Source: Pyropia yezoensis (taxonomy: Eukaryota; Rhodophyta; Bangiophyceae; Bangiales; Bangiaceae). Taken from it: DNA of 64,000 bases. Numbering within the stretch: position 1 is the first letter of the stretch; each line of letters starts with the position of its first letter. A program made the translations under genes and the position numbers. The stretch is from contig CM020620.1 in assembly GCA_009829735.1 (NCBI GenBank), positions 17,194,354-17,258,353 on the forward strand, in the 5' to 3' direction. Below the pieces are notes generated by a model that had not been told where the DNA came from, did not search any database, and saw only the letters and a program-made list of their open reading frames with translations. Of the stretch, positions 22,174 to 56,744 are shown one piece after another.

Positions 22174-22536
22174 TGTAGCAATATGGTTGGCCGTATTGTG
22201 ACCCTAATGTTAGGGGGGCTACTTCTAATCCTTGGCTTTCAATTCGAGAGTCCGTACTGGTCACGGTATCTATAAGTTACGTATGACCAGAGGGACTTGC
22301 ATCTTGGGGTGGAGGGTAGCTAGTAGTGTCTCCGAGGGTTTATAACGAGGGGACCGGCGGCGAATCCACCGCCGGCCAAGGCAGAACAACAAACCCCTCC
22401 CATTTGGGCTCCCATCTTGGTCCCGTGGCTTGCGCTCCAAGGACAGCAACCTTGGCCTCCCGGTGACGTTGGTGCCGATCCCCCTTGGTGAGTGTTCCCT
22501 GAGAGTGGACGTGCGACGGATTCCTATTGTGTTACA
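22174..22536 (+). repeat. 5' LTR of chromovirus 1
   Basis: 363 bases starting TGTAGCAATATGG and ending TTGTGTTACA. The last bases differ from the 3' LTR (GCTACA), so this end is mutated. Confidence 0.92.
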
Positions 22537-22554: not shown

Positions 22555-22761
22555 ACGGGTTTCCGTCACCTTTGTGGTGACGCCGTCTTCGGCCCTGGCA
22601 CACGGATAGGGATCCGGTCCTTTTCTTGTACTCGTGGTGTTGCGACCTGATCGATTGTGTTGAGTTTTTACCTTTGACTGTGATCTACTGTTACTCTCCC
22701 CAATCTACCCCCTCGCTCTCTTATTCGTGGTGATTGTTACGTCGGTTGACTGATTGTGACT

Positions 22762-24939: not shown

Positions 24940-27900
24940 GAGTAAGAGGAAGGATGACCGGGGGGCGCTGGGGTAACCCAAGCAAGCCACCCCGGAGTAC
25001 CGCGGGGAAAACCCCACGGCGAGCGCGTTTGAGCCGGCGCCGCATCAATCCCCGGGTACACCTTTCGGCCCCGACGACACAGAGTCAGGGGAATGATGAG
25101 AGTCCTCCGACAACGGGAGGCGAGGAAGGGATGCCCCGTCACGTTGAGCCAGCCAAGGGCCCTGTCCAGGATGCCCGAGGAACACCGGATATCGGTGTAG
25201 GACATGTGCTGTTTACCTTGGAGAACTTCAAGGTATCAGCCACACTGGGGGTTGACCCCCAGTCGACACGATCGTACTACCCTGTACTGGATACAGGGGC
25301 TGGACCCAACCTTATCCGGAAGGATACCCTCCCGGACAAGTGGCTTCCGCGAGTCAGAGTGACTCGGGGACCCACCATCAAGGACGCGAATGGTCGCCTC
25401 ATTCGTACGACCGCAGCGATGTCGCTGCGGGTTACCATCGGGGAACTCACCACGGAAGTCGACTTCCTGGTGTGAGAGACCCTATCGGTGCCCTGCATAC
25501 TGGGGTGCACCTTCATCAACGTTCACGTGGATGCAATCCGGCCAGGCCGGAGGACCGTCGAGCTCCAAGAAGCCGACGGGACGAAGCGAGGACATACGGC
25601 TATCGTCAGGGACCTGACGCTACAAGGGAGCCACGTTAACGTGGCTGAGGTGTACGCAAGCGTCGAGCCGAAGACACTTCGGTTGGCTAAGCGAACTCGC
25701 TTTGAACCGTTGTCGGAGACAGTCCTCCCGGTTAACTGCGACCTCGCAGGCATCTGCAGAGTCCGGTCCAACCTGCGGACGTACAAGCGCCATGGGTTGA
25801 CCATGGCCAACGGTCTCATAGACCTCCCAGCAGGAGGGTCGTCCCTCCTAGTGATGGCGAACTATCGCCGTAAGGCAGTCACCCTCCCGAAGGGAACTAT
25901 CCTCGGGATTGCCGAGCTCTATGAAGGGGATATTCTTACCCCTGACAAGGAAGGTCAAGTGGAACCACTTGAGGTGCTGGCGGTCGCCGAGACCACCGAG
26001 CGACAGCAACCCGATGACGGGAAGCCTGACCCATCGGCGCCTTCGGCGGACATGCCGGCAAAGGACCAAGAAGCACAGAAGGCCCTGGCCGAGGCTGACC
26101 TCGACCACCTTCCCCCTTCGGTAGCCGAAGGGGTACGACGGATGCTAAGAAAGCATGACGTCATGTGGACAGGCGGGGCCTTGGGTACCATTGGGGCAAC
26201 CCAACATCGTATAGACCTGGTACCAGGCGCACGACCCGCCCGGTCACAACCGCACTGAGCGGGACCTATGCAACGAGAGATCGTTGATGAAGAAGTGAAG
26301 AGGATGAGCGAAGCGAAGGTGATACGACCTTCGATGTCGGAGTGGGGTGCCCCAGTCGTTATCGTACCGAAGAAGGATCAAACCCCTCGGTTTTGCATCG
26401 ATTATCGACGCCTCAACTTGGTTACCAAGAAAGACTCATACCCTTTACCAAGGATGGATGAATGCATCGACTCCCTGGGGGAAGCTACGGTGCTTACCAC
26501 CATCGACTGCAATGCCGGATACTGGCAGATCCCAGTGGTGGACGAGGACATCCCGGTGGTACCGGTCTGCATGGTGGGTAACGCCACCCAAGGTATGGTT
26601 GACCATACCATGGCACACCGAGCATGCCCACTGACTCTCGCGGACTTCCGCGAGGCACAAGCCAATGAAGACGACTGTAGACGCCATCGCGCCAACCTCC
26701 TGGCCGGTACGGCCGGCATCTTCTCCGAGAATGAAGACGGACTCATATACCGGCGGGCACCCGCCGATGGACGACATCAAGTCGTGGTTCCCGTGTCCTT
26801 ACGGCAAGCCGTCATGGAACGAGAACACGAGAACCCTACAGCCGGACACCCGGGGGGTTCACGTATGTTCGCAGCAATGCGAAGGTTCTTCTACTGGCCA
26901 GCAATGGCCGTCGACGTGGTCGACCACGTAAGGGGATGCCACCCCTGTGCACGTAACCGCATGAGTCTACATAGGCAGGCGTCTGCCATGAAACTGTTCC
27001 CGCCTGATGGGCCCAACGAGCAGGTCGCTATCGACATACTCGGGCCACTTCCGGTAACGGAAGAAGGGAACAGGTACATCCTAGTCATGTCAGACCGGTT
27101 CACTAAGCTGTCACGAGCGGCAGCCATCCCGAATGATACGGCATATACCATCATGAACGCAGTGGTTGACCACTGGATCAGTGCATACGGAGTCATTAAG
27201 CAACTCCTCTCCGACAACGGAGCAAACCTTACGTCAGCATATTGCACTAAGGTCCTGGGCATGTTCGGCATCGAACCACGTCGGGCATCCGACTACCACC
27301 CGCAAACCAACGGGCAGGTGGAGCGGTTCAACCGCACCATCGTCAAGATGCTACAGTGCTACGTGGCCGAGCACACGAACACTTGGGACAGGCTTCTGTC
27401 CGTACTCACCCTGGCATACAATGCCAGGCCACATCGGAGCACAAACATCGCCCCACTGGAGTGGGTCATGCCACTAGGGGTCGGTAACCTGACGCTGCCA
27501 CCCGGCAGGTGCACTCGGTATGATACACCGAAGGGCCGACCGGCCGAACGCATCCACCTAGCTTGGTTGGCCAAGCTATCGTGGATGATTCCTAAGCTCA
27601 AGGGTGCCCTTGACAGAACACAACTTCGATACAAGAAGAACTGCGACGCCCGGTTACGGGTGCGCAACGCAACCCTGGTAACAGGTGACTGGGTCTACAT
27701 CAGACACCAGAAGTTCCGAGGGAACAAGCTTATGCAACCGGTCAAGGGACCGTACCAGATCTTACACAGAGATGATCACTCTGTCATACTGCACTCCGAT
27801 ACGGAGATACAACGCATCAACCTCAACGATGTGACACCTGCTCCGAAGCCGGAACAGCCTCAGCCGGTACCGGCTGGGTTGCTACATGAAGCTCTTGCAA

Positions 27901-28103
27901 CCCACCGGTCAGACGACCCGGTGGGACCGGATGGGATTCCATACCAAGTAGAGAGCGTGGTCGGACACACCGACCCGGACCTACCAGGACCCTGGTACGT
28001 CAAGGTTATGTGGGTCGGATACGACTCACCCACCTGGGAACAGGCGGCGAATATACCCCGCCAACTCCTCATGCCTTACATGAGGCGACGACGCCTACTG
28101 TAA
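24933..28103 (+). pseudogene. Pol of chromovirus 1: protease, truncated RT, integrase, chromodomain
   Basis: One frame, -1 to gag, with in-frame TGA at 25473 and 26256 (both at positions where relatives have Arg, so CGA-to-TGA). The aspartic protease site is intact (VLDTGAG, near 25290). RT starts normally (PRFCIDYRRLN, YPLPRMDEC, GYWQIP) but after about 26550 jumps in frame to the linker before integrase; relative to chromovirus 2 about 981 bases (327 codons) covering YxDD and all RNase H are missing. The junction lies at a VDED phrase that occurs at both breakpoints. Integrase is complete: HHCC zinc finger, D in AIDILGPLP, D in LSDNGAN, E in QTNGQVERFN. A chromodomain (YVKVMWVGYDSPTWE) ends the protein at TAA 28101. 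It is non-autonomous. Confidence 0.88.
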
Positions 28104-28553: not shown

Positions 28554-30924
28554 TCAGTGGGTAGACCCACTGCCTGAGGGAGGCCACTCACGCGTAAGCG
28601 CGTATACCTCCGTGCTCCACCGGTCGGCAATCTCACGACGGTCAATCACCCGAGTTACCTCGGTGCATAGCTGGACGAGGGTGCTGCGGCCAGCCTCCAC
28701 GTCCTCCAGAGCTGTCTGGAGGCGGTCAAGCACACCACCGAAGCAACGCGCTGACCCAACCAGCGCAGCACCTGGGGGGATATCCCCCCAGCTAAAAGAG
28801 AGACCCTCCCGCATTGCGCGGGCAACAAGGGCGTCAACGCCCTCATACCAGAGACGGGGACCCCCGTCATGCATGACAGGGGCGGGAGGTGACACTGGCG
28901 CAGCCAGAGGAGCCACAGGAGCCGACACGGCCACCACCGGAGCCGGTGGCGCCTGATATGAGGCCCGGTAGGACCCCACCGAAGGGGCTCCACCGTAACC
29001 CCGGCGGGGCTCCGCCCGACGACGGGACACCTCACGCTCCCCACCCGCAGAGCCCCACTCTCGGGTACGACGGCCAACCGCCGCCGGTATCGGGTTACCG
29101 AACCACGGGGCAAGGACCTGAAGAGGGTCATGGATAACCATGGGAATACCCAGGTCAGCAACAGCCTCGGTGGACGCCCACCCATGGCAATTGGGCTCAC
29201 CCGGCTGAGTACGCCGGATACGCAACGAGTGACGAGGCAAGGGGGAAGCCCCAGCCTGCGGGTCCCGGTACGGGGGAAGGGCCAACACCCCAGCCCAGTT
29301 CACGGCATCGTGAACAGCCAGCAGGGCCTCGAACTCCCGGGCCAACCCGGTCTTGGCGGCTATCAGGTCCACGCCCAACTGCGCGATGTGCCGACGGACA
29401 CCCGTCGGAAGATGAAACAGGCGCCCCTGCCGGCGGACGGACAGCAAGAAGGAGGAAGCCTGCCCGAGGGTAACCTCAAGGGTGAAGGTACCCTGCAACG
29501 GGTGGACCGGCCGGGAGGCCAACACACTCCCGAAGTATCGGAGACAGGAGCCGGTGTCAAACCGGAAAGCAGGGGCGGGTTCCCACCCCTCCTGCCATAG
29601 CGGCGGGCGCACGGGAGTATATACCGGCGCACGACCGTTGCCGGTCTGCAACGCACACATTATATCGGTGCGGAACGCATCCGCCATGACACCATGGTTA
29701 CGTCGCCAACTCGACGCCGACTTCAAACCCGCCAAAGGCGGGTAGGGAGCCGTCAACGACAGATACGGGGACACCCCCGGGTAATAATCAAAGTCGGGAT
29801 ACCGACCGGTATCGCCCACCGTCTCCCCAAACGCGACCGGCTCCGCCGCCGCCGCAATCCCCCGAGCACTAGCCGGGTAGTCAACCTCCCGCGGCAACGC
29901 GGGGGCAATCAGGTCGCATACCCTGAAGGCGGGGTCGAGGTAGACCTCACCCCGTCCCACCCGGGTGCGCCAGAGCTGCGCATGCCGGTCGTCCGGCTGA
30001 CTCAGGATCCAATGGTGTTCCACCCGCACCGCGTTCGGCTGGTTGACCAGCCGCACCAACTCCCGCTCCCAACTCGGGTCCACCCAGACGCGGCGGGAAG
30101 TCCCTCTAGAGAGACGCGACTGGTGGAGGTCCACCCTCATCCGCCCAGCGGACTCCATTGACTCTTGTACAGTCATGCCTCGAACCCGAGCCACCAAGTC
30201 GGACATCGACATGGCGGGTTGACCCGCCGCCACGGCGACGCCGCCACCCAACGGGGCAACCCGGGCAGGACCAGGAAGAATCGGGGGCGCCGGGGGAAGC
30301 CCCACCGGCAGATGGACCGGTGCCGGAGGTGCACGGGGCCGAGGAGGAAGAAGAAGGGTTGGGCGCCCGCCCGGAGTAGCTCCCGGAGTCCACCGCCATC
30401 GGGGAAGACACGTCTTGACCACCAATCGCCCGCGGCACCGCGGGCAGAGCATCACCGCCACCCGGTCCCGACGTGGGCACCACGGGGGCAGCAGGGGTAG
30501 ACCTGTCACCCGCCGCCGGGGACACACCAACCGGGCGGGCACCCGCGCCGTCTTGACCCGCCGTCCCGGCCGAAGTGCCCCCACGACCGTCCGACACGCC
30601 GGCGCCGCCGTCTTCAGGTAGAGCCGCGCCGGTACCGGCGACAGACGCCATCCGGCCCGCCGGAGGATTGGGAGTAGAAGCAGCCGCTACACGCGGTTGC
30701 CCGCCAACCGACGGAGCCGTCGTGCCGCTGCACACGGACGACAATCCGCCTGGCGCACCTTCTGGGGCCACGCGAACGGTTACCCGGTCGCCCTCGTCTT
30801 CGGACGAGCTCGCCAAGAAGCACTCGGCAGCGGTGGCGGAGACAGGAACGTCGTCCACCATCCCCTCTTCCTCCTCCTCAAGCAGGAGGTCGTCCTCGCC
30901 CCCGGGTACCTGGGGGTCCGACAT
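28554..30924 (-). pseudogene. Antisense accessory gene (aORF) of chromovirus 1
   Basis: About 790 codons on the strand opposite to gag-pol, between pol and the 3' LTR. It starts at ATG 30924 (MSDPQVPGGEDD); the first part is acidic then Pro/Ser/Gly-rich. Near 30300 the frame shifts by +1, next to a short G/C run, into a frame that runs open to TGA 28554. The folded-looking part (about 30180-29150) contains WVDPSWERELVRLV, YPDFDYYPGVSPYL and RRQGRLFHLPTGVRRHIAQL. It has no recognised domain, zinc finger or clear membrane segment. A related block (QRRGMLWHLP..EQL, E..L..H....W) is found at the same place in chromovirus 2. Antisense extra frames are known in some plant Ty3/gypsy lineages; I do not recognise this family among them. 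Confidence 0.65.
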
Positions 30925-31497
30925 GATGACCGGGGTAGCAGGGGCGCCCCGTGCAGAAAAGCCGAGGCCGGCTCGACCCGGTACGAGGAACGCTCGCGCG
31001 GACGAGCCAGGGAAGCGCGGGCGCCCGCGCTTATAACCACACAGCTCAGCACGAGCGATACGGCAGCGCGGGACGACCCGCGCCAGCCGAGCTACGAGGG
31101 CGCTCCACCCAGGCACCTGGACCGGAGCCACGCCCCCCCCACACGGGGTAACCAGGGGGGTCACCCCCCACCGCCCCCACCCAACGCGGGCAACCCGCGC
31201 CACCCACTCAATCGTCCCACGAGAGGGGCCCCCCTACCACCAGACACCTGGTGGCGGATCCGCATGCACCACCCCTCGGAAAGGGGGGTCGTGAACAGAA
31301 ACCCGCATCGGGAAATTAACGGTCCGGAAAACGGATCGTGTGTGTACCACACAAAGGGGGGCACCCCCCTCAGACAACCTCGAAAAGGGGTGTCTGTCGC
31401 GACAGGGCGCAAAGCCCCACCCAACTGGTAAACGGTCACGCGACCCACTTACATTCGGTAACCCGAATGCAACTCGACCCGAGGACGGGCCGAATCT

Positions 31498-31509
31498 AAG
31501 GGGGGGATA
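31498..31509 (+). promoter_or_regulatory. Polypurine tract of chromovirus 1
   Basis: A purine run AAGGGGGGGATA lies directly before the 3' LTR, in the position expected for plus-strand DNA priming. Confidence 0.7.
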
Positions 31510-31872
31510 TGTAGCAATATGGTTGGCCGTATTGTGACCCTAATGTTAGGGGGGCTACTTCTAATCCTTGGCTTTCAATTCGAGAGTCCGTACTGGTCAC
31601 GGTATCTATAAGTTACGTATGACCAGAGGGACTTGCATCTTGGGGTGGAGGGTAGTTAGTAGTGTCTCCGAGGGTTTATAACGAGGGGACCGGCGGCGAA
31701 TCCACCGCCGGCCAAGGCAGAACAACAAACCCCTCCCATTTTGGCTCCCATCTTGGTCCCGTGGCTTGCGCTCCAAGGACAGCAACCTTGGCCTCCCGGT
31801 GACGTTGGTGCCGATCCCCCTTGGTGAGTGTTCCCTGAGAGTGGACGTGCGACGGATTCCTATTGTGCTACA
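31510..31872 (+). repeat. 3' LTR of chromovirus 1
   Basis: 363 bases from TGTAGCAATATGG to GTGCTACA; its ends form a 6-base inverted repeat. Visible differences from the 5' LTR are near 31656, 31740 and 31868. Confidence 0.92.
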
Positions 31873-31885
31873 CAACGGCACGAGC

Positions 31886-33232
31886 TAGACGTCCAACACC
31901 ATGTGGGCCAAGGTGTGGTTCAACTTCGCCACGCGTACTCCTCCCAACTTGACCGCTGCTGAAATGCGCGGGCGATGGACAAACCGCCCTCCGACGTCGG
32001 CCAAGACTGAGTTCCTTCGCAACATTGGGCCGTGCAGCCAGCGCTTTGCTCACTTTTATCACGTGGCAAGCACGCAGCTGACTGGCAACATAAATGAGGC
32101 GTCCGTTCTTCGTGCGACGCGTTGCCTCTACACGGCGACGAGCGCGTACGCTGCTGAGCGGAAGAACATCGACTACGAGAGGGTGCTCAAAGAGCAAGGC
32201 AAGGCACCACCTGTCCGCCGCGCCCGTCTCCTGCCCGAGAACTGGCAACCGTGCTGGCTGGTGCTGCGCATGCTCGACAAGTGGAGCGGGGCGACGGCCA
32301 ACCCTGGGATGGAGAAGCTGTGTCTGGACGACACGGAGGACTCAAAGGACTCGGACTGTGACTCCGACTCCGAGGGTGCGGCCACTGTCGATGGCGGCCG
32401 CAGTAAGGGCAAGCGCAAGAGGGACGAGTACAACGCGTTGCAGAGCCGCCCCCCGGGGCGCAAGGCTGCTAAGCGGGATATTGCCGCCAAGGCGGCGGAG
32501 AGCAAGCTGGAGGCGTCGCTGGCGTCGTCCGACCAGGCCATGCAGAGCATTGCCAGCTCAATGGCGCGCAAGACTGAGCTGGCGGAAGCAGCGTACCAGG
32601 TAGAGTCGCGGCGGGAGGCCATCGACTTTTTTGACCGCCCCGAGAATCGGGAGACCCCCGAGGGCAAGGAGTTCCGGCGGATGATGCTGCTGCGCATGGT
32701 GGACCTGGGCAGGACGGTGGCGCAACAGGTCATTCACGAACGCACGACGGCGGCGGCTGCCACAGCCTCAGCTGGTACGCCTTCAGCGTCCACTGCGAGC
32801 AATCCGGCGCGGGCCAGCGAGGGACCGGCTCTAGGCACATCGAGCCGCAACAGCGGCGCCGGCTCGCGCTCTGTCTGCGCGCGTGGAGCTCATGCCATGC
32901 AGACCAAGACACTGGAGGCAAAGGCGGCCGCTGCCACTCAGAATGTGGATCTGACCACGCCTCCCAACGAGCGCATTCATCCTGCGGCTACCGCTGCCGC
33001 AAGCTCCTACGCTGGTCGCGGCGGTGGCGTGGGGCCTGCCAACGAGGCCGCGACGGCGGGTGGTGCGCTCGATGAAGATGGGATTGACGGTGAGGGTGCG
33101 GCCTTCGAGGACTTTTCTGCCGATAAAGATGAACCTGCACCTGTGAACGACGAGGAGGTCCCGTCTGCTTTCGATTTGAGTGACGACGCAGATCGAGACG
33201 CAGACGAGGAAGAAGACCAAGACGATGAGTAG
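31886..33232 (+). pseudogene. PIF/Harbinger ORF1 (SANT/NAM-associated DNA-binding protein)
   Basis: The frame from ATG 31901 encodes 443 residues, and the frame upstream has a TAG at 31886 and then the LTR. Family features: an early SANT/Myb-like part (MWAKVWFNFATRTPPNLT, then MRGRWTN), a NAM-associated-type segment (WQPCWLVLRMLDKW, residues about 107-120), the RPPGRKAAKRD phrase (about 184-194) and a following long helix rich in Ala, Glu and Arg. The tail is acidic (DDADRDADEEEDQDDE). In Harbinger elements this protein helps carry the transposase to the nucleus and to DNA. The N-terminus is separated by chromovirus 1, so the gene is broken even though the remaining frame is open. Confidence 0.72.
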
Positions 33233-34050
33233 TGTCGGCCCTGCCGGCTGATGCTGTTGGATGCTGTACTGCCGTACTGCTTGTGCCTGCTTTCATGTGT
33301 TGCTGCATGAGCTGCTTTCTTTTCGGCCTGTAGTGTACCGCTGATGATGCTCCACTGACGAGGCGAGGTACGCGCACGTTGGTGAGTATTCTTCGTTTTT
33401 CTCTCTCTTGCGCCCATAGTGTAGCGTAGTGTGGTGTTGTAGTGTAGCACCTGCCCAATGCTTTTTTTTTTCTCGGGGTTGGCCGCCGGGTTTTTTTTTT
33501 CCCACTGGAACACGTCGCCGTACCTGAGCAGAGTTCAAGACAGTACGCCGCGCCCGCGAGGCAAGCGCAGCGTTTGCACAGCCCGGCAGCTGTCTTGAAG
33601 TCGTCCGCTCCAAAAAAAAACGACGGAGGGGGGGGGATCGGGGCCTTCCATGTGCGCCTCTTCGGGAGTCTGGGCGGAGGTAGCCCCAGCTGAATACGCA
33701 GCTACCGTGGTCAGCGTTTGGGACCGGCGTATGCCCCGCGAGGGATGGTCCTGTCCAGTCTCATTTGGAGAGACACAGAGGTTGCACAGGCCGTTTGTCA
33801 CGTGGCGGGGGGTGGGGGCGAAGGGTCCCACGTGCTTCGCGTGCAGGGGCAGCGCGGTTTAAACAATAGTGATCCCGGGGGGCGCGCCGTCTGGGGGGGG
33901 CACCTGGATCAATAGCTGACCGCCTGACTCGGCGTTCCTGTCTGAATGCGGCCGAGGCTTGGCAAGTGGGCGGCCCGCCTGCTTGTCGGGCACGAAGGGG
34001 TGTCCTCAACTACTACGCAAGGAGCGAACGTGTCAGTACGAGGTTTGCAC
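33233..34050. other. Spacer inside the Harbinger region
   Basis: About 800 bases without a supported gene. It contains T- and A-runs (33459-33500, 33613-33622) and a 10-base inverted repeat (TTCAAGACAG at 33534-33543 with CTGTCTTGAA at 33590-33599). Confidence 0.4.
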
Positions 34051-34620
34051 TACGTACGTTGTGGGGCGGGGGGCAGGTGCGTGCGGTGTTGGCAGCTGGC
34101 CGCGCGGGGGGGGTGGGGGGAGGTTGTGACGGTGTCGGCGGCTGGCGCAGCGGTGTGGGAGCGGTGGCGGTGTTGGCCGCAGGCGGTGCGGGGGGGGGGG
34201 CAGGTTGTGGCGGTTTTGGCGGCTGGCGGTGCGGGGGGGGGGGGCGGTTAGGTCGCTGCTGGCGGCTGGCGTCGCAGTATGGGAGGAAGAACGTGGCGGT
34301 GTTTGGGGCTGGCGGTGCGGTGCGGGGCGAAGGTCGTGGCGGTGTCGGCGGCTGGCGGTGCTGGGCGGGGGGGGGTAGGGGTGGCCTACTTGGTGGCTTG
34401 CTGGGTGGGTCGGGGGAAGGTGGTGGCGGTGTTGGCGGCTATCGACGTCGGGCGTGGGGCAGGTTGTGGGGGTGTTGGCAGCCGGCTGGGTGGGGCTGAG
34501 GCAAGATGATGGCGGTGTTGGCGTCCGACGGTGTCAGGCGGGGGGCAGGTTGTGGCGGTGTCGGCGGCTGGCGGTGTGGGGCGCGGGGCACTTGTGGCCG
34601 TGCAGGCGGCTTCGTCTGAG
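34050..34620 (+). repeat. G-rich degenerate minisatellite
   Basis: Repeated phrases of the form GGTTGTGGCGGTGTTGGCGG and GGCGGCTGGCGGTG recur about every 50-70 bases, with G runs between them. Units are degenerate and the exact period was not measured. Confidence 0.65.
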
Positions 34621-34703
34621 GGAAGGACTGAAGGAAGCTGGCGATTGAGGATATCAAAATATCTTGATAGAAACGAGGAGGAGAAGGCCAGCAACGAATT
34701 CTG

Positions 34704-36581
34704 TCACAGATACGGCTTGAGAAGTACTTCCCGTCGAGCCCACACATGCACTTTTAGGCAGTTCTTCAACGCGGCATGAATAGTTGCGTCGGTCGCGCGA
34801 GACCAGCCCAACACCGCCCGCAGCAGCAACCCCTGAGCCGGCGCAGCAGCAGGACCTACAAGAGGAGCTTGCAGCGCGCCTCCATTGTCCCCAAGTACGC
34901 CACCAACAGGACCAGCTGCACCCCCGCCTCCACCCACACCATTGCCAACTCCCACGCCACCTGCACCCTCACCCGCCCCTCCCTCGCTCGCACCCTCGGC
35001 GCCGCCGGCGTCGCCAACTGCAGCGTCAGCGAGGCCGGCCGCCCCGCCGGCGAAGGCACCGGAGGGCTCCGCCAATCCACCTCCAGCACCCGCGGCCCCG
35101 CCACCTCCACCACCGGCCACTCCGCCACCTCCACGACCGGCGACGACCGCTATTCCACCAGCACCGGCCGCGCCGCCGTCTCCACCTCCCCCACCGGCCA
35201 CGCCGCCGCCTCCACCGACACAGGCGGCACCGCCGCCTCCGCCGCCACCGACCGCGCCACCACCTCCACCAACACCGGCCGCTTCGCTGCCTCCACCGCC
35301 ACCGGCCGCGTCGCCCGCTGCACCACCGACAACGCCCGCCCCTCCGGCTGCATCACCGCCGTTGTCGCCGGCCTCCCCGCCGGTGTCGCCGAGGTCCGTC
35401 GAATCAGACTCTCCCTCAGACGCCCCACCCGGCCTCCCCGTTCCATACCCTGGCCTAGACCGCGAGACATACCTGTGGCGGCGAGTCTCGGTGACCATGT
35501 TATGCAAAACAGCGATAGCCTTGGCGGTACAGACCAGCGCGGAAACAGACATTGAGCTACCAGGGTACAGAGCCACATGAAACCGGGCAGTGAGCACGGC
35601 ATAAAGACGCTAAACGTCTTTTCTAAAGGCCTCTTGGAGGCGATTGAAAGCTCGCTCCTCGTCGTTGGCAGGCACGGCGTACGGTGAGATCATGAACGCG
35701 TGCCGGGGATCAATCCCGTCGACAAGATAATAGGGCATGCGGACAAGAGTCCCATTGACGGTGAAGGAAACTCCAGCGGGGGGCCACAGTCCTCGAGTGA
35801 CCTTGGTCATCAAAGGGCTGTGCGTGAGGACGTTCAGGTCGTTGTTCCTGCCAGGTGCGCCGGCGTAAATGTGCCAAATCCAGAGATCCTCGTCACACGC
35901 TGTCTCAAGGACGATGCTCTTCTTCCCCGTGCGGTCCTGGTACATGCCGGCATGCGCCGTCGGGCTGTTACTCCACTCCCAGTGAGAGCAGTCCAACCTG
36001 CCCATGCAGCCTGGAATACCCCTCTCCGCATTGCGTGTCATCATCCTGTGCAGGTCCTCGTTCGTGGGTGCCCTCAGATACTCCGCCTGATGCTTGCGGA
36101 GAATGATCGCCACGAGCCGCTTGGTGGCCAATGTCACTGTCGTCTTGCTCAGTCGGACGTACTCGTTCGTGCGGTCCGTGCACTCACCGTACGCCAAGAC
36201 GCGGAAGGCAGCCACCAGCTTCTGCAGTGGATGCGCCGGCAGGCGACCGGTGGCATTGGGTCGCTGCTCCCACCAGGTCTCATGTTTGATGTCCTCATAG
36301 ACGCGGCGAAAAATGGCTCTAGGCACACGAAAGCGCCGCTCAAAGTCCTGGTCGTCGTACACGGGTGGGTGCCCGTCCACGCCGAAATAGTCGCGCAGAA
36401 TGCTGTGCACGCCATTACTGAAATTCTGGTCCTTGTTTGGGCGACGGCCTGGGAGAGAGCCCCGCCGGCGGCGGGTAATGCGTGACAATAGCCGCCGGCG
36501 TTGAATCAATCGAAGGACAGTGCAGCGGTGCCGGTGCGCCAGGGTAATGGCTAGGTCATCGTCGTCATCACTAGCGTTCAT
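34704..36581 (-). pseudogene. PIF/Harbinger DDE transposase with stop in place of the VER-motif Glu
   Basis: The start is ATG 36581 (MNASDDDDD). A helix-turn-helix-type N-terminal part precedes the DDE_Tnp_4 domain: first acid in RLDCSHWEW, second in APGRNNDLNVL, then DGIDPRH and QEAFRKDV. The next codon is TAG (35612-35610) exactly where relatives have the Glu of the V-E-R motif, generally taken as the third catalytic acid. The frame then stays open for about 300 codons: RLYAVLTARFHVALYPG and ILHNM-like AVLHNMVTE (family C-terminus), a long Gly/Ala-rich stretch, and a final ATDATIHAALKNCL tail, ending at 34704. The open tail suggests a recent nonsense change. Lengths fit an otherwise complete transposase with an extended low-complexity C-terminus. 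Confidence 0.85.
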
Positions 36582-36969
36582 GGTGCGTACCTGGAGGGAG
36601 CACAAACCGACGAGCACAAAACAAAAAATCCACGATGAACACAACAGGGGAACGCGGAGAGACAAACGAAAAAAACCGCGTCAGCAACCAAAGTCGTCTC
36701 GAAGCAGACGTAGTCACGTGCGAGCACGCAAGCGCGAGTGGCACGACGCAAGCGGTGGGTGGCGAGGGCGTACGCGCCGAGAGGGACGACGACAGGCAGC
36801 GGGAAGAGGACGGTGGTCGCGACGACAACGGTGAGGGCACCTGTGAGACGTGGCGACACAGCGGAGACAGCCCGATTCTGCTGGTGTCTGGAGAAATGGT
36901 GCCCACAGGGGGCCTCAAAGAGATGGGGGGCGCGCCAACACACGGCCTCTCGCGAGGGGCTCGCATGCA
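36582..36969. other. Spacer upstream of the Harbinger transposase
   Basis: About 390 bases, likely including the transposase promoter (transcription runs toward lower coordinates). No gene and no clear inverted terminus were found. Confidence 0.35.
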
Positions 36970-37070
36970 GGCCTCATATGAGAGGCGCAGCGGGGAGGGG
37001 CACAAAAAAAATGCCTGCTGTGGGGAGGCGCGGCAACACACGCTCTCGCGCGGGGGGCTCGCATGCAGCC
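36970..37070 (+). repeat. Tandem repeat unit left of chromovirus 2
   Basis: About 100 bases running from CCTCATATGAGAGGCGCAGC to CGGGGGGCTCGCATGCAG. The end of a similar unit lies just before it (36944-36969), and another copy lies at 46453-46550, on the other side of the inserted retrotransposon. Confidence 0.7.
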
Positions 37071-37540
37071 TGTGGCAGTATTGACCCCCAGGTAGGGGGG
37101 CAACACGTGCCATGCAAGGGGCGGCAGGGCACTAGCCTGATCCGCTCCTCCCCCTGCATTTGGGTCCATATTCCCTAAGTTTGGGATAGTTAGCTTAGTA
37201 GTAAATCCAACTTGGATTTGAGGGTTTTTCTGCATTTATCGTCTTGAATCTTCGTGTGGCCCGGTGGGCAGGTGCTGGGGTGGGAGATTCTGAGTGGCGA
37301 GATTCTGGGGGGACCCGGGGGGGATAAGGAGAGGGACAGCGGGGCTTGGCCCTGCGTCCCCGTCCCGACCAAGAAACTGTTGGACCACACACCATCCTCT
37401 TGTTTGTCAGTGGGGGCTTTGCCCCACAACAGGGACAGAGTGTGTGCGACTTGCACTTCTTCCGGTTCCCCCGACACGGGAGGCAGCCCTTGTACACCGC
37501 CCCAACTTGGGTGTCGTGTGTGTAAGTTGTTTTTGCCACA
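37071..37540 (+). repeat. 5' LTR of chromovirus 2
   Basis: 470 bases starting TGTGGCAGTATT and ending TTTTTGCCACA. Confidence 0.93.
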
Positions 37541-37545
37541 TTTGG

Positions 37546-37563
37546 TGGAGCTGCAGGGGACAG
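37546..37563 (+). promoter_or_regulatory. Candidate primer binding site of chromovirus 2
   Basis: TGGAGCTGCAGGGGACAG starts five bases after the LTR and matches the corresponding phrase in chromovirus 1 except for one base in the first 14. Confidence 0.55.
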
Positions 37564-37659
37564 AGGTAAACTTTACCTCCGGGTGCACCCGGGTGTAGGG
37601 GGCCCTCTGTCTCAGAGAAACGGTGGACTTGGACCGTGTCATACGGATCGTCAGCCAAC

Positions 37660-39607
37660 ATGGCTAGTTCGGACCCCCCGTCATCCGGGGAGTACACGGG
37701 TGACGCACGTACTTCAGTGCCTTTGAATACTGGTGAAACACAGGTGGGTTTACCTGGGGTCGCAGAGGGACTAGAGGTCCCTCAAGCCAGCAGGACTGGA
37801 AGTGCGGGCGGGCAACAGGCCACCCCGACTCAGTCGGTAGTTCGCTCGGGTGACACTTCTGATGTGGGTGGGCCGAAGTCTGGCCACCGTGTGGTATACT
37901 CAACGGGAACGTCCCAAGCGGTGAGGACTGTCCCCGCGGGTTCCACTCGGGTTGGAGCCAACTTTGGCTTGGAGCCGTCGCCAACTAGGCTTTCGGAGGA
38001 CGGCGGACCTCCGTGGGTCGGCGATGGGCTCGCGCCCATGCCCCCGGTTGAGACCCCTGAGGAACGTGGTTACCCCTCAGGTGGACTCCCGGAGGCGGAC
38101 CGAGACTCAATTGGAGTCGTCAATCCACTCCTCGCGGAAACTGTCCGTCGGGAGGCGACCAATGTGTTGCGGCAGACTTTGCCGGACCTGGTGGTCACGA
38201 TGACGAATACAATTCTGAATCAGATTGTGGCGAGTTTGCCAGATGGCCTTAATGTCCAGACCGGATCAGGGCTTTCGAGCCCGCAGGCGCAGGGGGAATC
38301 CCTTCTCACGCCTACCTCTGGTCGCCCCGAACAGGGGGCGACACCTGTGACTCCCAACGAGGGAGCCACACCATACTCGGTGGGGCGTACGCCCTTCATG
38401 GGGGAGTTCCCCCCGGAAACGCCGGCGGCTACACCAAGCGCGCCGCGCCGGACTACAGGCACTGAGGGTGAACTTACCCCAGTGCCACAGCGGCTGTTCC
38501 CTCAAGGTGAGGTGCCGCCAAAGATCCAGGTAGCCAACCCGGTCTATTCAGAGGATCTTTGACTGTGAGACCTACGCCCTCCACAACAAGTCGGTGGTGT
38601 ATGGTCCTGACCAGGCCCGAGTCATGGGCCGTGCCAAGAAGAATGCACTTCATTCTTTTGGGCACAAAGCGGAGTGGGATGGAACTCCCCCCCTCCGTGT
38701 CTTTGAGTTCCTACGTCGTTTCACAAAAGCCTGTGACGACAATGCCATAAGTGAAGGCATGGCTTTCTACACGCTACAGGAGTTTACGAAGGGAGACCTG
38801 CGGACAGAACTTATGTCCGTCATGCCCAGCTCCTCAAGTGGAGGCGCTGGTGAGGTGACGTCCTATGTGGAGCTCGTCAACTGGTTGTTGAAAGCCATGG
38901 TTGATGAGGCGGCCTTGGCTTCTCAAGTCGAGGAGTTTACGCAAGCCCATCAGGAAGAGGCGGAGGACGAGTTGTCCTTTGCGGAGCGAGTCCGTAAGCT
39001 CAACAATCTTTGTGGGTTTCTTCATCCACAAGCTGTGGTGAAGAGTCGGTTTGTGGAGGGACTCCATTGGTCAGTCCGGATGGAGACCCGGGAGCATGAC
39101 ACTGCCCGGGCGACCCTGGCCGAGTTAGCTAGGTTCGCCTACCGCAGAGGCGAGGCCTACCGCAAGTTGCGGGAGGAACAACGCCAGGAGCGTTAGGCCG
39201 AGTTGACCAAGGAACGTGAGGAGGCGCGCCAGGCCAGAGAATTGAGAGAGGCACGCCGAATCCGCAAGGAAAGGGTGGTAGCTGCCGTGGGAGCTTCCCA
39301 GGGTATCTCTTCGTCTTCCCCAGTTCGGGAGATTCCTCCGGGAACTGACAATCGGTGTTGGAACTGCAACTCCGATGGACACTGGGCATATGATTGCCCC
39401 AAGTTGAGTAAACGCATCCAACAACTTGTTAGGAATGCGAGTAAGAAGTCGGCTACGAACAAAGTACGTTCACGCCGCGAGGGTGGGTTTCGACCGGTGG
39501 GGGCGGTCGCCACACCCTCGGCGAAGGGGGCGGACACGTCGTCCTCGGACTCGTCGTCTTCCCCTTCGTCCTCAGATTCGGACGCCAAGTCGGCGGGAAA
39601 CGAATGA
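37660..39607 (+). pseudogene. Gag of chromovirus 2 (frameshift and nonsense)
   Basis: It starts at ATG 37660 (MASSDPPSSG). A Pro/Thr/Gly-rich N-terminal part runs to about 38550, where the frame shifts by one. The capsid continues in the other frame (FDCETYALHNKSVVYG at about 38558, then GRAKKNALHSFG), which is homologous to the corresponding part of chromovirus 3 gag. An in-frame TAG at 39194 (probably CAG) breaks it again. The nucleocapsid knuckle is intact (CWNCNSDGHWAYDC). A Ser/Asp-rich tail ends at TGA 39605 just after the slippery site. Confidence 0.82.
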
Positions 39608-39640
39608 CCGTTGGAGCTGGTCGTCCGAAGCTCACAACGG
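39595..39640 (+). promoter_or_regulatory. -1 frameshift signal (heptamer plus hairpin), chromovirus 2
   Basis: Heptamer G GGA AAC (39595-39601) in gag phase, then GAA TGA. After a 6-base spacer a strong stem forms: CCGTTG (39608-39613) with CAACGG (39635-39640), continued by GAGCT (39614-39618) with AGCTC (39629-39633) across a one-base bulge. The -1 frame leads into pol. This is the textbook layout of a programmed -1 site. Confidence 0.78.
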
Positions 39641-42600
39641 CAGCCTCGGCCAAGTAGGTCAAGAGGACGAATCAACCGTGCCGGATACTGCGGCGACCTA
39701 AGGGAGTCCGCCTACCTCGGGTAGGACTCCCCAAGAACATAAACCCACGTCGGGTCATCGCGGTGCTGACGGGTGAGAATTTCCAGGCAGCTGGACGGGT
39801 GCAACTTGCCACCGGCCGCGCCTGTTGTGCCCGTATCGTACTTGATAACTGGTCAGGAGCCTCCTTGATACGCAAGTCGCTATTACCAAAGGAGATGATG
39901 CTCCAGCGCTGGAAGTCTAAAGCTGACGATCTGATCGATATCAATGGTGGGGTACTTCCCATCGTTGGTGCCGTGACCCTACCAACTAGGTTGGGGACCC
40001 ATGAGGTCGACGTGACCTATGGTGTAGTTGAGAATATATCGGTACCCCTGCTTCTGGGTACCCCTTATGTTGTTACACAAGTGCCTTTGATTTGTGGCCC
40101 TGAGTATTGGGTCAAGTTGATGAATGGGGAAACCATCCCCATCCTTGGTAAGGGAAAGTCTGTGGCTCCTGTGACAGTCTCACAGTCGAAGCCTGTTTGC
40201 TCTGTGAGGGAAGGGTTTACTGCTACCCTGCGTTTAGCCCGTAAAGTCACGTTGCCCCCCAACTCGGTGGCGCACGTTGACGTTGTAACTGATTATACGG
40301 GGAACGGGTTGGTGCACCCTCACCCCCGTCTTGCTCGCAAGCACCAAGTGCATCTTGCCCTTGGCACGATGGACTCCAAAGCTGGAGTCCCGTGGAGGAT
40401 CCAGGATATGAACCTGAGCTCGTCGCCCAAGTACTTCAAGTCGGGAGCCAAGTTCAGCTATATCGACCAACACGAGGGACCGGTAGTAGCGGTCACCCTC
40501 AACGCGGGCGCAAGTAGCGACCCGAAGTCCGAAAAGGAGAAGCATCAAGCCAAGTCGGCCGCCTCTCCTCGGCCCCATGTGAACATGGAGGGTGTTCCAC
40601 CCAGGTTGAGGGTTCAAGTTGAATGCCTCTTGGACCAATATCACAAGTTGTGGGATTGTCAATTGGGACTCATGAGAGCTACCCAACACCGGATCGAGTT
40701 GAAGCCCGGTGCACCCCCTATACGCCAACAACCGTGTAGGGGAGGACCCCGTTCAAGGGCCCTCGTTAAGGAGCAAGTTGCTCGCATGGAGGCCCTCGAT
40801 GTGATCGAGGCCAGTAACGCCGAGTGAGCAAGTCCGGTGGTTATCGTCCCCAAAGTTGATGGGACCCCCCGGTTCTGTATCGACTACCGTAAGCTCAACG
40901 AGAGCACGGTGAAGGACAGTTATCCCCTTCCTAGGATGGACGACTGTCTGGACTCCCTGGGGGAGGCGAACGTGTTCTCTACCCTGGACTGTAACGCGGG
41001 GTACTGGCAAACTCCCATTGCCCCGGAGGACAGGCATAAAACTACCTTTACCTGTCACTGGTACCTACCAGTGCAAGCGTCTACCGTTTGGTCTGTGTAA
41101 CGCGCCGGCAACTTTCCAGCGCGCTATGGACATGATTCTGGCCGGAGTACGGTGGCAGATCTGTCTCGTGTACCTAGACGATATCATTGTGTTCTCCCGA
41201 AGTCCGGAGGAACACATTGGCCATCTTGGCCAGGTGTTCAAGCTACTTGCTGACGCCGGTGTGTCACTGAAGGCGAGTAAGTGCCACCTCTTCACTCAAG
41301 AGGTGGAGTACTTGGGACATGTTGTCCGTCCGGGGCGTCTCAGTGTCAACGAGAAAAACTTGAGGGCCATCCGTAAGGCTCAGTACCCCCGGACCCAGAC
41401 CCAGATGAGGAGCTTCCTCGGGATGTGTAACGTGTACCGACGTTTCACCAAGGGCTTCGCCAAGGTGGCGAAGCCGTTGAATGAGTTAGTGAGCTCAACG
41501 CCACCGAAGAACCTGCCTCCCCCAAGTCGGGTGGAGCAGGAATCCTTTGAGACTCTTCGGGACCTTCTGCTGAGGCCCCCTATCCTGGCTTTTCCCAGGT
41601 TGGGAGGCCACTACATCCTGGATGTGGACGCTAGCTACGACCAACTTGGTTGTGTGTTGCTTCAGCAGCAGCCGGACAAGGGGTACTTGCCGGTGGGATA
41701 CTTTAGTAAGGGGCTGAACTCGGCCGAGAAGAACTACGGAGTCACCGAGTTGGAAGGACTCGCAGTGGTGTGGGCGGTGACGTCACTTCGTCACTACCTG
41801 GAGGGTGAGAAGTTTCTCATCCGCTGTGACCACCGCGCGTTGCAGTTCATCTTTAAGTCGGACTGTACGAACACTCGTCTCAACCGGTGGAGGGTGCGAC
41901 TGGCACCCTTCAACTTTGACATTGAGTACCGACCTGGTAGGCAACATGCCCTTGCCGACGGCCTCTCTCGGGTACCTACCGAGGGGCTGGACACTAACCC
42001 AGTCGATGAGGACATCCCCATCGTGGGGGTAGTCACGCGCTCGGGTCAGGTGTTGAACCCCGAGGCGCCAGGGAACAAGAAGTACTTGCCCCTGTCCCTG
42101 GAAGAGGTGGTGAAGGCCCAGGCCGAGGATACCTTCAGCAAGTCGCAGAGGGATACACTGGATACAGTGGTGGAGACGCGGCTCTTTCTGGGAGACGATG
42201 GCCTCCTTATGAGGAGGGGGGTATTCCAGGGGACCGAACAACTTGTCGTCCCCGCATCCCTCAAGGACAGTATCCTTGAGAGGGAGCATAACGCTCCCAA
42301 GGGTGGACACGTGGGGTCTAGTAAACTGTACCAGACCCTGAGGACCAGGTACTACTGGCCGTCCATGGTGGTGGACATCTACAGTTGGGTGGCTGCCTGC
42401 ACAAGTTGTGCACAGAACCGTCTAATGGAACGGCGGCCTACTACGGCTATGCTATTGTTCCCGGCCAAGGAGCCCTTTGCCGCGTTGGCGATGGACATCC
42501 TTGGGCCACTGCCAGTGACCGAGGGGGGCAACCAGTACCCCCTGGTCATCTGTGACCGCTTCACGAAACTTACGCGAGCGGTCCCACTGGCAAAGATCAC

Positions 42601-43585
42601 GGCCATGTCGGTCGTGTCAGCCTTCCTAGATCACTGGGTTGCCGCGTATGGCATTCCGGATAGTACACTATCGGACAATGGACCACAATTTGCGTCATTA
42701 CTGTTTCAGGGAGTGCTGGATATGTTGGGGGTTAAGGCAAACTATGCCACCCCCTACCACCCACGAACTAATGGGCACGTGGAGCGCTTCAACGAAACTT
42801 TTGTTCGGCAGCTGCGCCACTATGTGAGTGAGCATGTGAAAACGTGGGACCAATACATTTCTATTCTTACCACTGCCTACAATTCGCAGGTTCACTCATC
42901 TACCGGGAAAGTACCCCTCGCGTTTGTGACCCCCCGTCGCGTGCGGTCTATTGCCGTGCGGCGGCCACTCCCAACTAGGGAGGATGGTGGCAGTACGCCT
43001 ACTCCTACTGAGAGTAAGGCGGAGTTCGCTGCTAGGCTTGAAAACCTCATCCCTAAAGTCAGGGCTGAGATGGACAAAGCACAACAGCGCTATCAGCGTA
43101 CATTTGACAAAAACGTGCGCAATGCTAAGCATGTCCCCGAGCAGGGTGACTGGGTGCTGGTACACTCACACACCCCAACTGGGGCTAAGTTGGTATTCCA
43201 GACGAAGGGGCCGTACCAGGTCCTTCGTACTGATGGGCGGCGCTTCACCATCGAAAATTACGATGGGGTCCGCACAGTGAACGGACAGGACGTGGTCAAA
43301 GTTGCACCACCCCCTGCAGGGGACCCAGCTTGGGCGCGGGCGCTGGAAGCGTGGCGCCTCCCCTCGCTGCCTGCGGCCAAACAGGGCCCGCAGGAGTACG
43401 TGTTCGATAAGTTCATCGACCACGGCTGGGATGAGGACACTGACCGCCCCATGTTGAGGGTCCGTTGGTTTGGCTACAAAGCCAAGGATGATACGTGGGA
43501 GTATGTGGAGGACCTTCCCGCTGAGAAGGTCCGGGCTTACTGTTCCCGGAATGAGATAGACCCTAACAGCCCTCCCTCAACGTGA
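39596..43585 (+). pseudogene. Pol of chromovirus 2: protease, RT, RNase H, integrase, chromodomain
   Basis: Frame -1 to gag. Lesions: TAG at 39655, TGA at 40825 (at the Trp of the family's EW(A)SPVV motif), and a frame change near 41060 after TFTCH. The protease active site reads L-D-N-W-S-G (39842-39857) instead of D-T/S-G; it looks like a one-base gain and a one-base loss close together. RT keeps CIDYRKLN, LPFGLCNAPATFQR and VYLDDIIVF. RNase H keeps LDVDASYDQLG, the E-containing ELEGLAVVW, and HALADGLSR. Integrase keeps HHCC, MDILGPLP, SDNGPQF and NGHVERFN. The chromodomain follows (LRVRWFGYKAKDDTWEYVEDL) and the frame ends at TGA 43583. The enzyme core is complete but unreadable in one piece. 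Confidence 0.9.
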
Positions 43586-43696
43586 GGGAAGGCCGAGTAA
43601 CAGTGCCAAGAGAGTGCTTCAAGTCGAAGTGGTACGCAGAGTGGCTTTTAACTACAGCCCTAACCCTCACACTCTCATAACAAAAGCAGCTGCCAA

Positions 43697-45640
43697 CTAG
43701 GCTTGCATGTCAGACTCTCCAACCCCACGGCCCTCGCCTTCACGTGGAGGCGAGCGGCGAGACCCACGGCGATAACGCTCCCCACCAGTCGGCGGGGCCG
43801 GCGGCTCCAAGTCGGAACCGCCGCGCCCCTCACGGTCGCGCAAGTGGCGACGACCGCGGCTGCCCTTCTGTTTAGTCTTGCGCGCAAGTTGGCGACGCAG
43901 ACGCCGGACCGACTCCGACTCTGACGGAGTCGAGGACTCCGAGACGGAGTAAGACAACTCGTCTTCCGACACGGAGGGAGAGCGCCGCGAGTGTCGGCGA
44001 CGATGGCGAGGTGGCGAGTATGCCCGGCTCGCGCGACGTTTGCCACGCCCAAGTGGGGCTGGCTGGGGCATAATAGCCCCGATGCGAGCCAACTCGGCCG
44101 TCACAAACTCCGCCACCGACTCGCAACTCGCGGTCGCCACTGCCGTACGAACGCGCTCCTCAAGTTCAGAAGTCTCGGAAGTCTGAAGGGTTGCGGTCGA
44201 CGCGGCCAACCAGGATATGGTGCGCACCAACGTGGTGATCATTATCTCTGAGGTCAGAGGCGTGGCCGGTAACACCAACTTGGGGTATACCGTCAGGAGG
44301 GTGGCCCCCAAGTTGGGGGACACCGGGGTGGACGACTCAACGGCCACGCTAATCGGGATGTCCCCGTGCGGCTGGTAGGAGACAGGAGGAAGCGGAGGGG
44401 CACGCCGAGGTGGCGGGACCAGGGTGTAACTGCGACCCCGACTTGGGGCCCCCGCAGTGGGTTAAGTCATATGTTCATCATATGAGGGCACGGCCATAAC
44501 TATGGCCTTGTCCGGGGGTGGCGCAGTATGGCGATCCACCCCCGGGGCATACGGGTAGTCCCGGACGCCCAACCCCTCTCGTAGGACCACACGGCCGTCG
44601 TGAAGTTCACGAGCGACCCATACGAACTGGCGAACTGCGCCATCGTCCTTGGGCCCACGAGTGGGGCGGCGCAACTTGTGCTCAATGCTCTCCCACTCGA
44701 TAAACTTGTGGAGGCGGAGCATCTCCTCAATTAGAGCGAGCTGTCCTGATGAACACCCCTCAGCAACTAGCTGAGGGGTGAGCTGTTCTAAACCTTGGAT
44801 AAGCCGGAGGGGGAGATGCCAGAGCATCCCCCGCCGCTGAACACAAGACACCCAGGTCGACATGACCTCGAGGAGCCACTGGGTGGCCAACATGGCCCAC
44901 ACCAGGTGATCAGGGCCAGGTTTCAACATGACGACGCTGAAGTGGTCAAGCAACCGTGGTAGCAACGCCGGGAACCCGTAGGGGACCTCAACTTGAGGCC
45001 ACCACTCGGGCTCCTTCGGATAGTACTGCTCCTTACTGGCAGCAGACTGCTGAGGGAGCTCAAGTTGACCCGAGGTCACCAAGTAGGGACCTCGGCGGAA
45101 GTCCTCCTCCATCCGCACATCAAAGTGATGAGTGTGCGGATCGGCCTCGTGAAGGTACGGGGGGCGAGTTGCCACCGCGTCCCAAGTAAAGTTCGGCAAG
45201 TCGCCGGGACCCGGGATAGTTCCCCCGCGGTCCACCATGGCCTTGGCCCGCTGTATGTCTTCGACCTCCTCGTCGTCCAGGAAGGCAAACTGGTCCGTCC
45301 TGAAGCCGGCAGGGAACCCGACCCGACGGGTATACTTCTCCCGTAGGCGGTCCCATACCCGACCCATCGCTGGGCCAAGTCGGCCACAGCGAAGAACAGT
45401 CAACCCCTCCTCATATAGAGGTCAAGCGGGGTAAAACCACCGCCCCAAGGCCTCACGCGGGACAACTTGTCCCGCCTCCGGGGGAGATCCCGCCGTCAAC
45501 CCAAAGCCGGGTGACGCGGGAGTCCCATCCCCCGGAGCGATCGCGGAGCCCCCGCCGGAAGTTCCGGCGGGCGCTGCACCGTAGGAGGTGTTCTCCATAC
45601 GTTCGTCGAAAGAGTCCGTCTCCACTCCCGTGGTCGCCAT
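43697..45640 (-). pseudogene. Antisense accessory gene (aORF) of chromovirus 2
   Basis: One continuous frame of about 648 codons from ATG 45640 (MATTGVETDSF) to TAG 43697, interrupted only by in-frame TGA (45424-45422) and TAA (44464-44462). It lies between pol and the 3' LTR on the opposite strand and converges with pol at a gap of 111 bases. The central part looks globular and helical: REKYTRRVGFPAGFRTDQF, LPNFTWDAVATRPPYLHE, then RRGMLWHLPLRLIQGLEQL and IEEMLRLHKFIEWES. The C-terminal third is Arg/Ser-rich (RRHSRRSPSVSEDELS, RRLRRQLARKTKQKG), suggesting nucleic-acid binding or nuclear localisation. The HLP block and its spacing to E..L..H....W match the aORF of chromovirus 1. No known domain is recognised. 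Confidence 0.68.
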
Positions 45641-45978: not shown

Positions 45979-46448
45979 TGTGGCAGTATTGACCCCCAGG
46001 TAGGGGGGCAACATGTGCCATGCAAGGGGCGGCAGGCCACTAGCCTGATCCGTTCCTCCCCCTGCATTTGGGTCCATATTCCCTAAGTTTGGGATAGTTA
46101 GCTTAGTAGTAAATCGAACTTGGATTTGAGGGTTTTTCTGCATTTATCGTCTTGAATTTTCGTGTGGCCCGGTGGGCAGGCGCTGGGGTGGGAGATTCTG
46201 AGTGGCGAGATTCTGGGGGGACCCGGGGGGGATAAGGAGAGGGACAGCAGGGCTTGGCCCTGCGTCCCCGTCCCGACCAAGAAACTGTTGGACCACACAC
46301 CATCCTCTTGTTTGTCAGTGGGGGCTTTGCCCCACAACAGGGACAGAGTGTGTGCGACTTGCACTTCTTCCGGTTCCCCCGACACGGGAGGCAGCCCTTG
46401 TACACCGCCCCAACTTGGGTGTCGTGTGTGTAAGTGGTTTTTGCCACA
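45979..46448 (+). repeat. 3' LTR of chromovirus 2
   Basis: 470 bases, TGTGGCAGTATT to TTTTTGCCACA, with a handful of differences from the 5' LTR (for example AACATGTGCC versus AACACGTGCC). Confidence 0.93.
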
Positions 46449-46452
46449 CAGC

Positions 46453-50404: not shown

Positions 50405-50420
50405 CCTCTAATCCGCTCCC
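50405..50420 (-). promoter_or_regulatory. Candidate polypurine tract of chromovirus 3 copy A
   Basis: On the minus strand GGGAGCGGATTAGAGG precedes the proposed 3' LTR start TGTTGCAAG. It resembles the tract of chromovirus 2 (GAAGAGAGGGGAG). Confidence 0.5.
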
Positions 50421-56741: not shown

Positions 56742-56744
56742 AAA

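Follow-up and report, generated by a model that had tools for sequence, protein, structure and literature searches.

Long terminal repeat (LTR) retrotransposons with an accessory gene antisense to gag and pol are known mainly from flowering plants, and the case described here belongs to a distant lineage, as it concerns two elements (element 1 and element 2) in a stretch of 64,000 nucleotides from the red alga Pyropia yezoensis (GCA_009829735.1, contig CM020620.1, positions 17,194,354 to 17,258,353), hereafter the window. Extra frames in plant chromoviruses are said, by Steinbauerova et al. in 2011, to occur rarely and within the 5' region only. The closest described systems belong to other hosts. 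According to the passages of PMC11963269 that deal with it, the plant Ty3/gypsy lineage Retand has, between pol and the 3' LTR, antisense coding regions for which a regulatory role has been proposed, and the antisense genes HBZ and APH-2 of the human T-cell leukaemia virus (HTLV) type are named there as an analogy. The relevant sections of PMC7264820 describe a promoter upstream of gene23 of the element Grande and a nuclear product of that gene, an HTLV antisense promoter in the 3' LTR, and an antisense gene of Boty from Botrytis cinerea that follows pol and precedes the 3' LTR; this gene, brtn, appears in the title of Zhao et al. 2011 as cited in PMC8365987.

The Pyropia gene shares its place between pol and the 3' LTR with Retand (PMC11963269), and both position and strand with maize Grande gene23 and the rice RIRE2 aORF, the gene23 promoter resembling the one predicted here. 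Unlike the Retand antisense proteins, which contain Transposase_28 (PF04195), seven members of the present family gave no match to that domain at E up to 1; a genome search with PF04195 gave no match here, yet none in any control genome either. Retand is also a non-chromovirus lineage of flowering plants, whereas our elements have chromodomain-like integrase ends and a red algal host. Grande differs in host kingdom and our promoter is a predicted one, and gene23 is likened to our gene by description, not by sequence. The same limit applies to brtn, which likewise lies antisense at this place of a non-plant element, but a fungal one. HBZ and APH-2 are likewise antisense accessory proteins, with a promoter in the 3' LTR as against a predicted promoter in the spacer here. 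An earlier note on this DNA had spoken of antisense frames known from some plant Tat/Ogre-type elements and of none described for chromodomain elements of this kind, a statement that has to be narrowed in view of the antisense gene of the fungal Boty (PMC7264820, in its part on Boty). No antisense accessory gene of a red alga was found in the literature, judged from search results. Antisense 3' accessory genes are already known as such; the present gene is a variant of them that occurs in chromodomain-type elements of Bangiales and has no match to Transposase_28. We use the wording chromodomain-type and leave chromovirus membership aside because the Pfam Chromo match is below the curated cut-off of 25.1 in both elements (20.0 bits, E 6.7e-4, in element 2 and 12.2 bits, E 0.18, in element 1), its position at the integrase end being right. 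Chromodomain-bearing Gypsy elements of a brown alga have been placed outside the chromoviruses in the pertinent part of PMC12477816.

In both elements a long opposite-strand frame lies where the earlier note had put it, between pol and the 3' LTR (30924-28554 and 45640-43697), and both families to which the elements belong (families 1 and 2) thereby have the position that is part of the definition of aORF-3R, antisense to gag-pol in the interval from pol to the 3' LTR. The element-1 frame starts with an ATG at 30924 and encodes 789 amino acids (aa) in open copies. It had been called intact apart from one shift, and the window copy does have 2371 bases with a single length-changing indel, the stretch being 2370 bases long in 37 of the 39 other family-1 copies listed. 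The open reading frames (ORFs) of element 2 had rightly been taken for one broken frame, which two stop codons divide into pieces of 149, 319 and 254 aa from stop to stop. The genome searched (107.5 Mb, with three large contigs) gave 1125 first-look candidates for family 1 and 1555 for family 2, the best 40 of each were scored, and 18 and 30 of these copies, window copies included, were analysed. The antisense frame is open end to end in 11/18 copies of family 1 and 17/30 of family 2, all in the same genome. Since the remaining five frames of the open copy L003 carry 8-25 stops and other copies are open too, the antisense frames are not due to chance, and a codon-usage score is highest for the antisense frame among the six frames in L003, L010 and L049.

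Three family-2 copies (L013, L031 and L032) are deletion derivatives that lack reverse transcriptase (RT), RNase H and part of the integrase and keep the LTR and the antisense region. One deletion junction is common to all three and a second one to two of them, and the antisense frame is open in one of the three; that the region was retained fits either a use of the gene or plain hitch-hiking.

For the analysis of selection, variable sites were classed as synonymous (S), replacement (N) or stop, with an expectation that follows the mutation types observed and their CpG context, and variants seen once, which are mostly post-insertion, were split from those shared by at least two copies, which mostly stem from the active lineage. 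Among the shared variants the antisense frame has S 50 and N 54 in family 1 (omega, the replacement to synonymous ratio, 0.47; p 1.3e-4) and S 68 and N 41 in family 2 (omega 0.25; p 1.6e-12), and none of the variants shared among the 18 and 30 copies introduces a stop in it. Rare variants are relaxed (omega 0.79 in family 1, 0.74 in family 2), and the four non-mirror frames of each family, with omega 1.35-3.07, show no purifying selection. The pol controls gave 0.10 in family 1 (8 copies) and 0.24 in family 2 (25 of the 30 copies), the antisense gene being about as constrained as pol in family 2 (0.25 vs 0.24) and pol being tighter in family 1 (0.10 vs 0.47). The family-2 control was made without L013, L019, L031, L032 and L037, which have pol deletions, indels or diverged stretches; the shared-variant omega of 0.60 obtained with all copies is misleading, being inflated by these five damaged pol copies. 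Between family 1 and the sister family described below, the antisense gene has dN 0.41 and dS 1.41 (replacement and synonymous divergence), an omega of 0.29 over 549 codons, and pol has 0.09 over 340 codons. Among the analysed copies, which were chosen by their match to the gene, the frame is open in most and is conserved like other encoded proteins, more loosely than pol in family 1; such conservation also belongs to the definition of aORF-3R. The suggestion that the conservation reflects selection is borne out by ratios among copies that are below 1 (0.47 and 0.25) and not near it; judged from these substitution patterns, purifying selection keeps an antisense protein gene in both families.

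The proteins of the two families match each other in BLASTP with 37.7 bits (E 1.4e-6, 24% over 230 residues), and the best of the shuffled controls (200 full and 200 local) reached 27.7 bits. When all 36 frame pairs were compared the antisense-antisense pair was the best one, the runner-up having 27.3 bits and E 0.002. With a hidden Markov model of family 2 the window's family-1 frame is detected at E 1.2e-4, and the reverse search gives E 0.0027. The motif that the earlier note saw in both (RRQGRLFHLP and QRRGMLWHLP, then QL, then E..L..H....W) is indeed there and falls within the significant alignment, and the relation it had proposed between the two frames is upheld by that alignment. By these comparisons the two antisense proteins are homologous over about 230 residues.

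Relatives extend further. The sister family of family 1 is represented by the database protein P0015, which has two places at 99% identity in the same genome, with pol on the opposite strand past the antisense stop. These two (L049 and L050, at G000:C2:9532685 and 9542978) are the only 99% places among the best 126 for P0015 and are oppositely oriented, with about 10 kb between them. Pyropia vietnamensis has relatives with 42-52% identity, the matches being annotated as genes, and a profile search gave 16 proteins, of which 12 are from this species; another of the 16, P0014, has at most 49% identity to the present genome among the matches listed and so comes from another genome. Each protein search scored about 8000 candidates that had exact words in common with the query, and no further relatives were found among these. 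The acidic start EDDLL.EEEE is common to family 1 and the P. vietnamensis gene models. In the P. yezoensis genome, the best 126 of 1930 family-1-like places scored with P0015 include 117 without a stop in the match and 92 whose open frame reaches 750 aa, and of the best 76 of 3562 family-2 places 74 have no stop in the match, open fractions that are biased upwards because the places are the best-scoring ones. An identical score at 46 of the family-2 places suggests that copies with an open gene multiplied in a recent burst. The flanks were read at 42 places of this genome (8, 30 and 4), and pol or the pol end was on the opposite side of the gene in all of them.

In family 1 the spacer between the start codon and the 3' LTR was compared between two subgroups of four copies. 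The 250 nucleotides (nt) adjoining the LTR are 93-100% identical, and from about -320 to the start codon the spacer differs between the subgroups, with patches of 89% identity at -200 and 97% at -110; in 30-base steps close by, identity drops to 52-69% on either side of the -110 patch. The block at -110 consists of GTGGTYATAAGCGCGGG followed by GC-rich sequence in 8/8 copies. Further copies from other subfamilies have ATAAG in seven of eight and CACAAG in one (L067), and in the six further copies with the start located the box is about 106-112 nt before the start codon. In the sister family, one copy has GATAAG at -104 and the other a changed box. The simplest reading of the island is that it is likely a TATA-type promoter of the antisense gene, which is a prediction, and the conserved part near the LTR could hold signals too. 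Of the start and promoter signals whose lack the earlier note would have counted against a gene, family 1 has an ATG start and, about 105-112 nt before it, a promoter-like signal in the conserved TATA-like block.

In the protein, arms of low complexity flank a conserved middle block. The N-terminal arm of family 1 is long and carries the acidic start, and the C-terminal tail of family 2 is very basic. Clusters of at least six K/R in 12 residues occur many times in family 2 and once in family 1, and the sister family has two that overlap. The usual threshold for the mean hydropathy of 19 residues is 1.6, and the best such means of four proteins are 1.23-1.51, with no strongly hydrophobic stretch. 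An env-like accessory gene was rejected on this ground together with the antisense orientation, and an origin from gag was not supported, as the antisense proteins show no similarity to the gag pieces of either element. In the AlphaFold2 model of family 1, only 10-residue blocks at about 721-770, a helical C-terminus, average at least 70 in the predicted local distance difference test (pLDDT).

Comparison of sequences establishes that the gene exists, where it lies, that it is conserved among copies as well as in a sister family and a second species, and that its two versions are homologous. We give about an even chance to the reading that the frames are diverged versions of one selected gene, antisense between pol and the 3' LTR, whose protein acts in trans as a nuclear accessory regulator of the element. 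Transcription in family 1 would start from the gene's own predicted TATA-type promoter about 105-112 nt upstream and not from the 3' LTR, and the protein could with such a promoter be made independently of gag-pol. It would then bind the nucleic acid of the element, chromatin or Gag, and the binding may set the amount of sense RNA or the number of integrations, as has been proposed for the antisense proteins of Grande and Retand. We chose a regulator because of the predicted expression unit of its own, the block between charged low-complexity arms and the analogy with Grande gene23, the best-studied analogue, and it is by this analogy that the regulatory step is put forward.

Several findings weigh against this reading. 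The copies were picked as best matches to the window copy, and the last quarter of the gene is unconstrained in family 1 (11 shared variants, omega 1.15). A low ratio is seen in the mirror sense frame as well (0.49 in family 1 and 0.29 in family 2), which follows from the coincidence of third positions, and this frame is excluded by its stops, not by its ratio: it contains stops as well as shared stop gains (2 in family 1 and 8 in family 2). The profile-profile match between the two proteins is modest (probability 73%, E 3e-5), and 21.5% with close copies only. No Pfam domain was found above cut-off, the sole match being DUF6214 below it; PHROGs gave two matches at E 0.1-0.2, and NCBIfam and the PDB sequences gave nothing convincing. 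The AlphaFold2 models are unusable, with a mean pLDDT of 34.2 and 33.3. The nuclear step is weak, since the P. vietnamensis protein P0004 has no K/R cluster and family 1 has one. As for the promoter, the box is altered in one of the two sister-family copies and in one of the eight further copies (L067), conservation in the spacer is not limited to the island, as the LTR-near part and the -200 patch show, and no TATA-like island was seen in the spacer of family 2. Finally, a third family of the window has no recognisable relative of the gene.

This family 3 is an LTR element on the minus strand, with pol at 53407-50648 and two copies in the window. The two stand in direct order within 48337-64000, 8408 bp apart, as in a tandem formed by LTR recombination. 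Its 3' region has glycine-proline-rich antisense frames of 275-276 aa that are open in 6/6 copies (49295-50122, plus strand, in the window). They were rejected as a further gene, since the longest has S 12 and N 38 and no third-position excess in a test of five copies, in which one of the two tandem copies was left out. In the integrase region family 3 is 40% and 42% identical to families 1 and 2, and these are 38% identical to each other. The gag of family 3, on the other hand, gave E 2.6 and 0.5 in BLASTP against the compared gag pieces of families 1 and 2, as against E 6e-12 for family 1 vs family 2. This corrects the claim that the gags of the two families differ: they are related, the element-2 piece 38594-39196 having 25.8% identity to the element-1 gag over 163 aa. 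It is a weak hint, and a testable one, that antisense gene and gag type may go together in the three families.

A wider proposal, which we hold only tentatively and think more doubtful than the regulator, is that the proteins form a Bangiales-confined family, occurring only antisense in Gag-related LTR elements, with its own promoter and co-inherited with the gag type, and that it arose independently of the plant and fungal genes as a switch that would control the element or shield it from silencing.

Among the rivals, we find it rather unlikely, though best placed of them, that the product is a second structural or assembly protein, working alongside Gag in the particle, be it as capsid partner, as chaperone or in a minor structural role. 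It would agree with the homologous gag and antisense gene shared by families 1 and 2, with family 3 having neither a recognisable relative of the gene nor a gag matched in BLASTP, and with a conserved block that is predicted, at low confidence, to be mostly helical. The gag correlation rests, however, on three families, the antisense proteins do not resemble the gag pieces of elements 1 and 2, and a separate antisense transcript would be an odd way of setting particle stoichiometry. Slightly less probable again is a factor for integration or nuclear import, one that travels with the pre-integration complex or steers it to chromatin and so complements a weak chromodomain. The very basic tail of family 2 and the weak Pfam chromodomains (E 0.18 and 6.7e-4) speak for it, and such a role is discussed for antisense proteins in a section of PMC7264820, but no nuclease, DNA-binding or import domain was detected and the tail is absent from family 1.

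A role at the RNA level, in which the antisense transcript itself would regulate the sense RNA with the frame being incidental, seems improbable. Any antisense transcript would be the complement of the 3' portion of the genomic RNA, and the review PMC7264820 leaves the possibility open in its part on the matter; codon-position bias, omega below 1 and protein homology across families and species nevertheless show selection on the protein. We regard it as equally improbable that the gene is a captured host gene, a passenger without a role in transposition. The obscure origin and the promoter-like block of its own would suit a passenger, but the constraint over a dS of 1.4 and across species would be unexpected for one, and pol or its end was opposite at all 42 places read in this genome. 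A chance frame or by-product of sense-strand coding constraint, to which the similarly low mirror-frame ratio and sense-strand open stretches of up to 399 codons in family 1 might point, is hardly credible at all, given at least 7 stops in every sense frame over the gene in L003, L010 and L049, shared stop gains in the mirror frame and none in the antisense frame, and an antisense-antisense match far ahead of the other frame pairs (37.7 vs 27.3 bits).

Elements 1 and 2 are LTR retrotransposons, and their parts are listed in Table 1. A purine-rich tract precedes the 3' LTR in both, and element 2 has the five bases CAGCC at both outer sides as a target repeat. In the pol frame of element 1, Pfam finds PF00078 (profile 1-87 of 205), PF17921, PF00665 and the Chromo match at E 0.18; most of RT and RNase H were not found by Pfam in this frame (26268-28103) of the window copy.

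Table 1. Parts of elements 1 and 2, in positions of the window.
Feature	Position	Strand	Basis
5' LTR, element 1	22174..22536	+	363 bp, 99.2% identity to 31510-31872, TG...CA ends
gag-like frame, element 1	22756..24924	+	722-aa ORF; matches element-2 gag piece, E 6e-12
pol end, element 1	26268..28103	+	Pfam: RT fragment, integrase, weak chromodomain
Antisense accessory gene, element 1	28554..30924	-	Open in 11/18 copies; omega 0.47; P. vietnamensis relatives
TATA-like island, likely antisense promoter	31000..31040	-	TATAAG at 31035-31030, 111 nt before start codon
Purine-rich tract adjoining 3' LTR, element 1	31498..31509	+	Sequence
3' LTR, element 1	31510..31872	+	363 bp, pair of 22174-22536
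5' LTR, element 2	37071..37540	+	470 bp, 98.3% identity to 45979-46448, TG...CA ends
gag region, element 2, in pieces in window copy	37636..39607	+	ORFs; 38594-39196 matches element-1 gag
pol, element 2	40913..43585	+	Pfam: RT (C-terminal part in frame), RNase H, integrase, chromodomain-like end
Antisense accessory gene, element 2	43697..45640	-	647 codons from ATG; open in 17/30; omega 0.25
3' LTR, element 2	45979..46448	+	470 bp, pair of 37071-37540

Just outside both LTRs of element 2 there is a 99-bp repeat, 95% identical, at 36968-37066 and 46449-46547. Next to element 1, the ORFs 31901-33232 (+) and 35610-36680 (-) resemble by eye the partner protein and the transposase of a Harbinger-type DNA transposon. 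Elsewhere in the window, Pfam recognises host-like genes for a trehalose-phosphate synthase/phosphatase, a Mad1-like protein, a CPL-domain protein and a subtilase, at 12-2564, 4049-6931, 9849-12527 and 17437-18576.

The present case offers copies that are numerous and nearly identical, selection that can be measured, relatives in a sister family and in a second species, and a promoter prediction that is concrete; the small nori-type genomes are a tractable test ground. If plants, fungi and red algae have each put an antisense gene at the same spot of their elements, there is probably a general reason for it.

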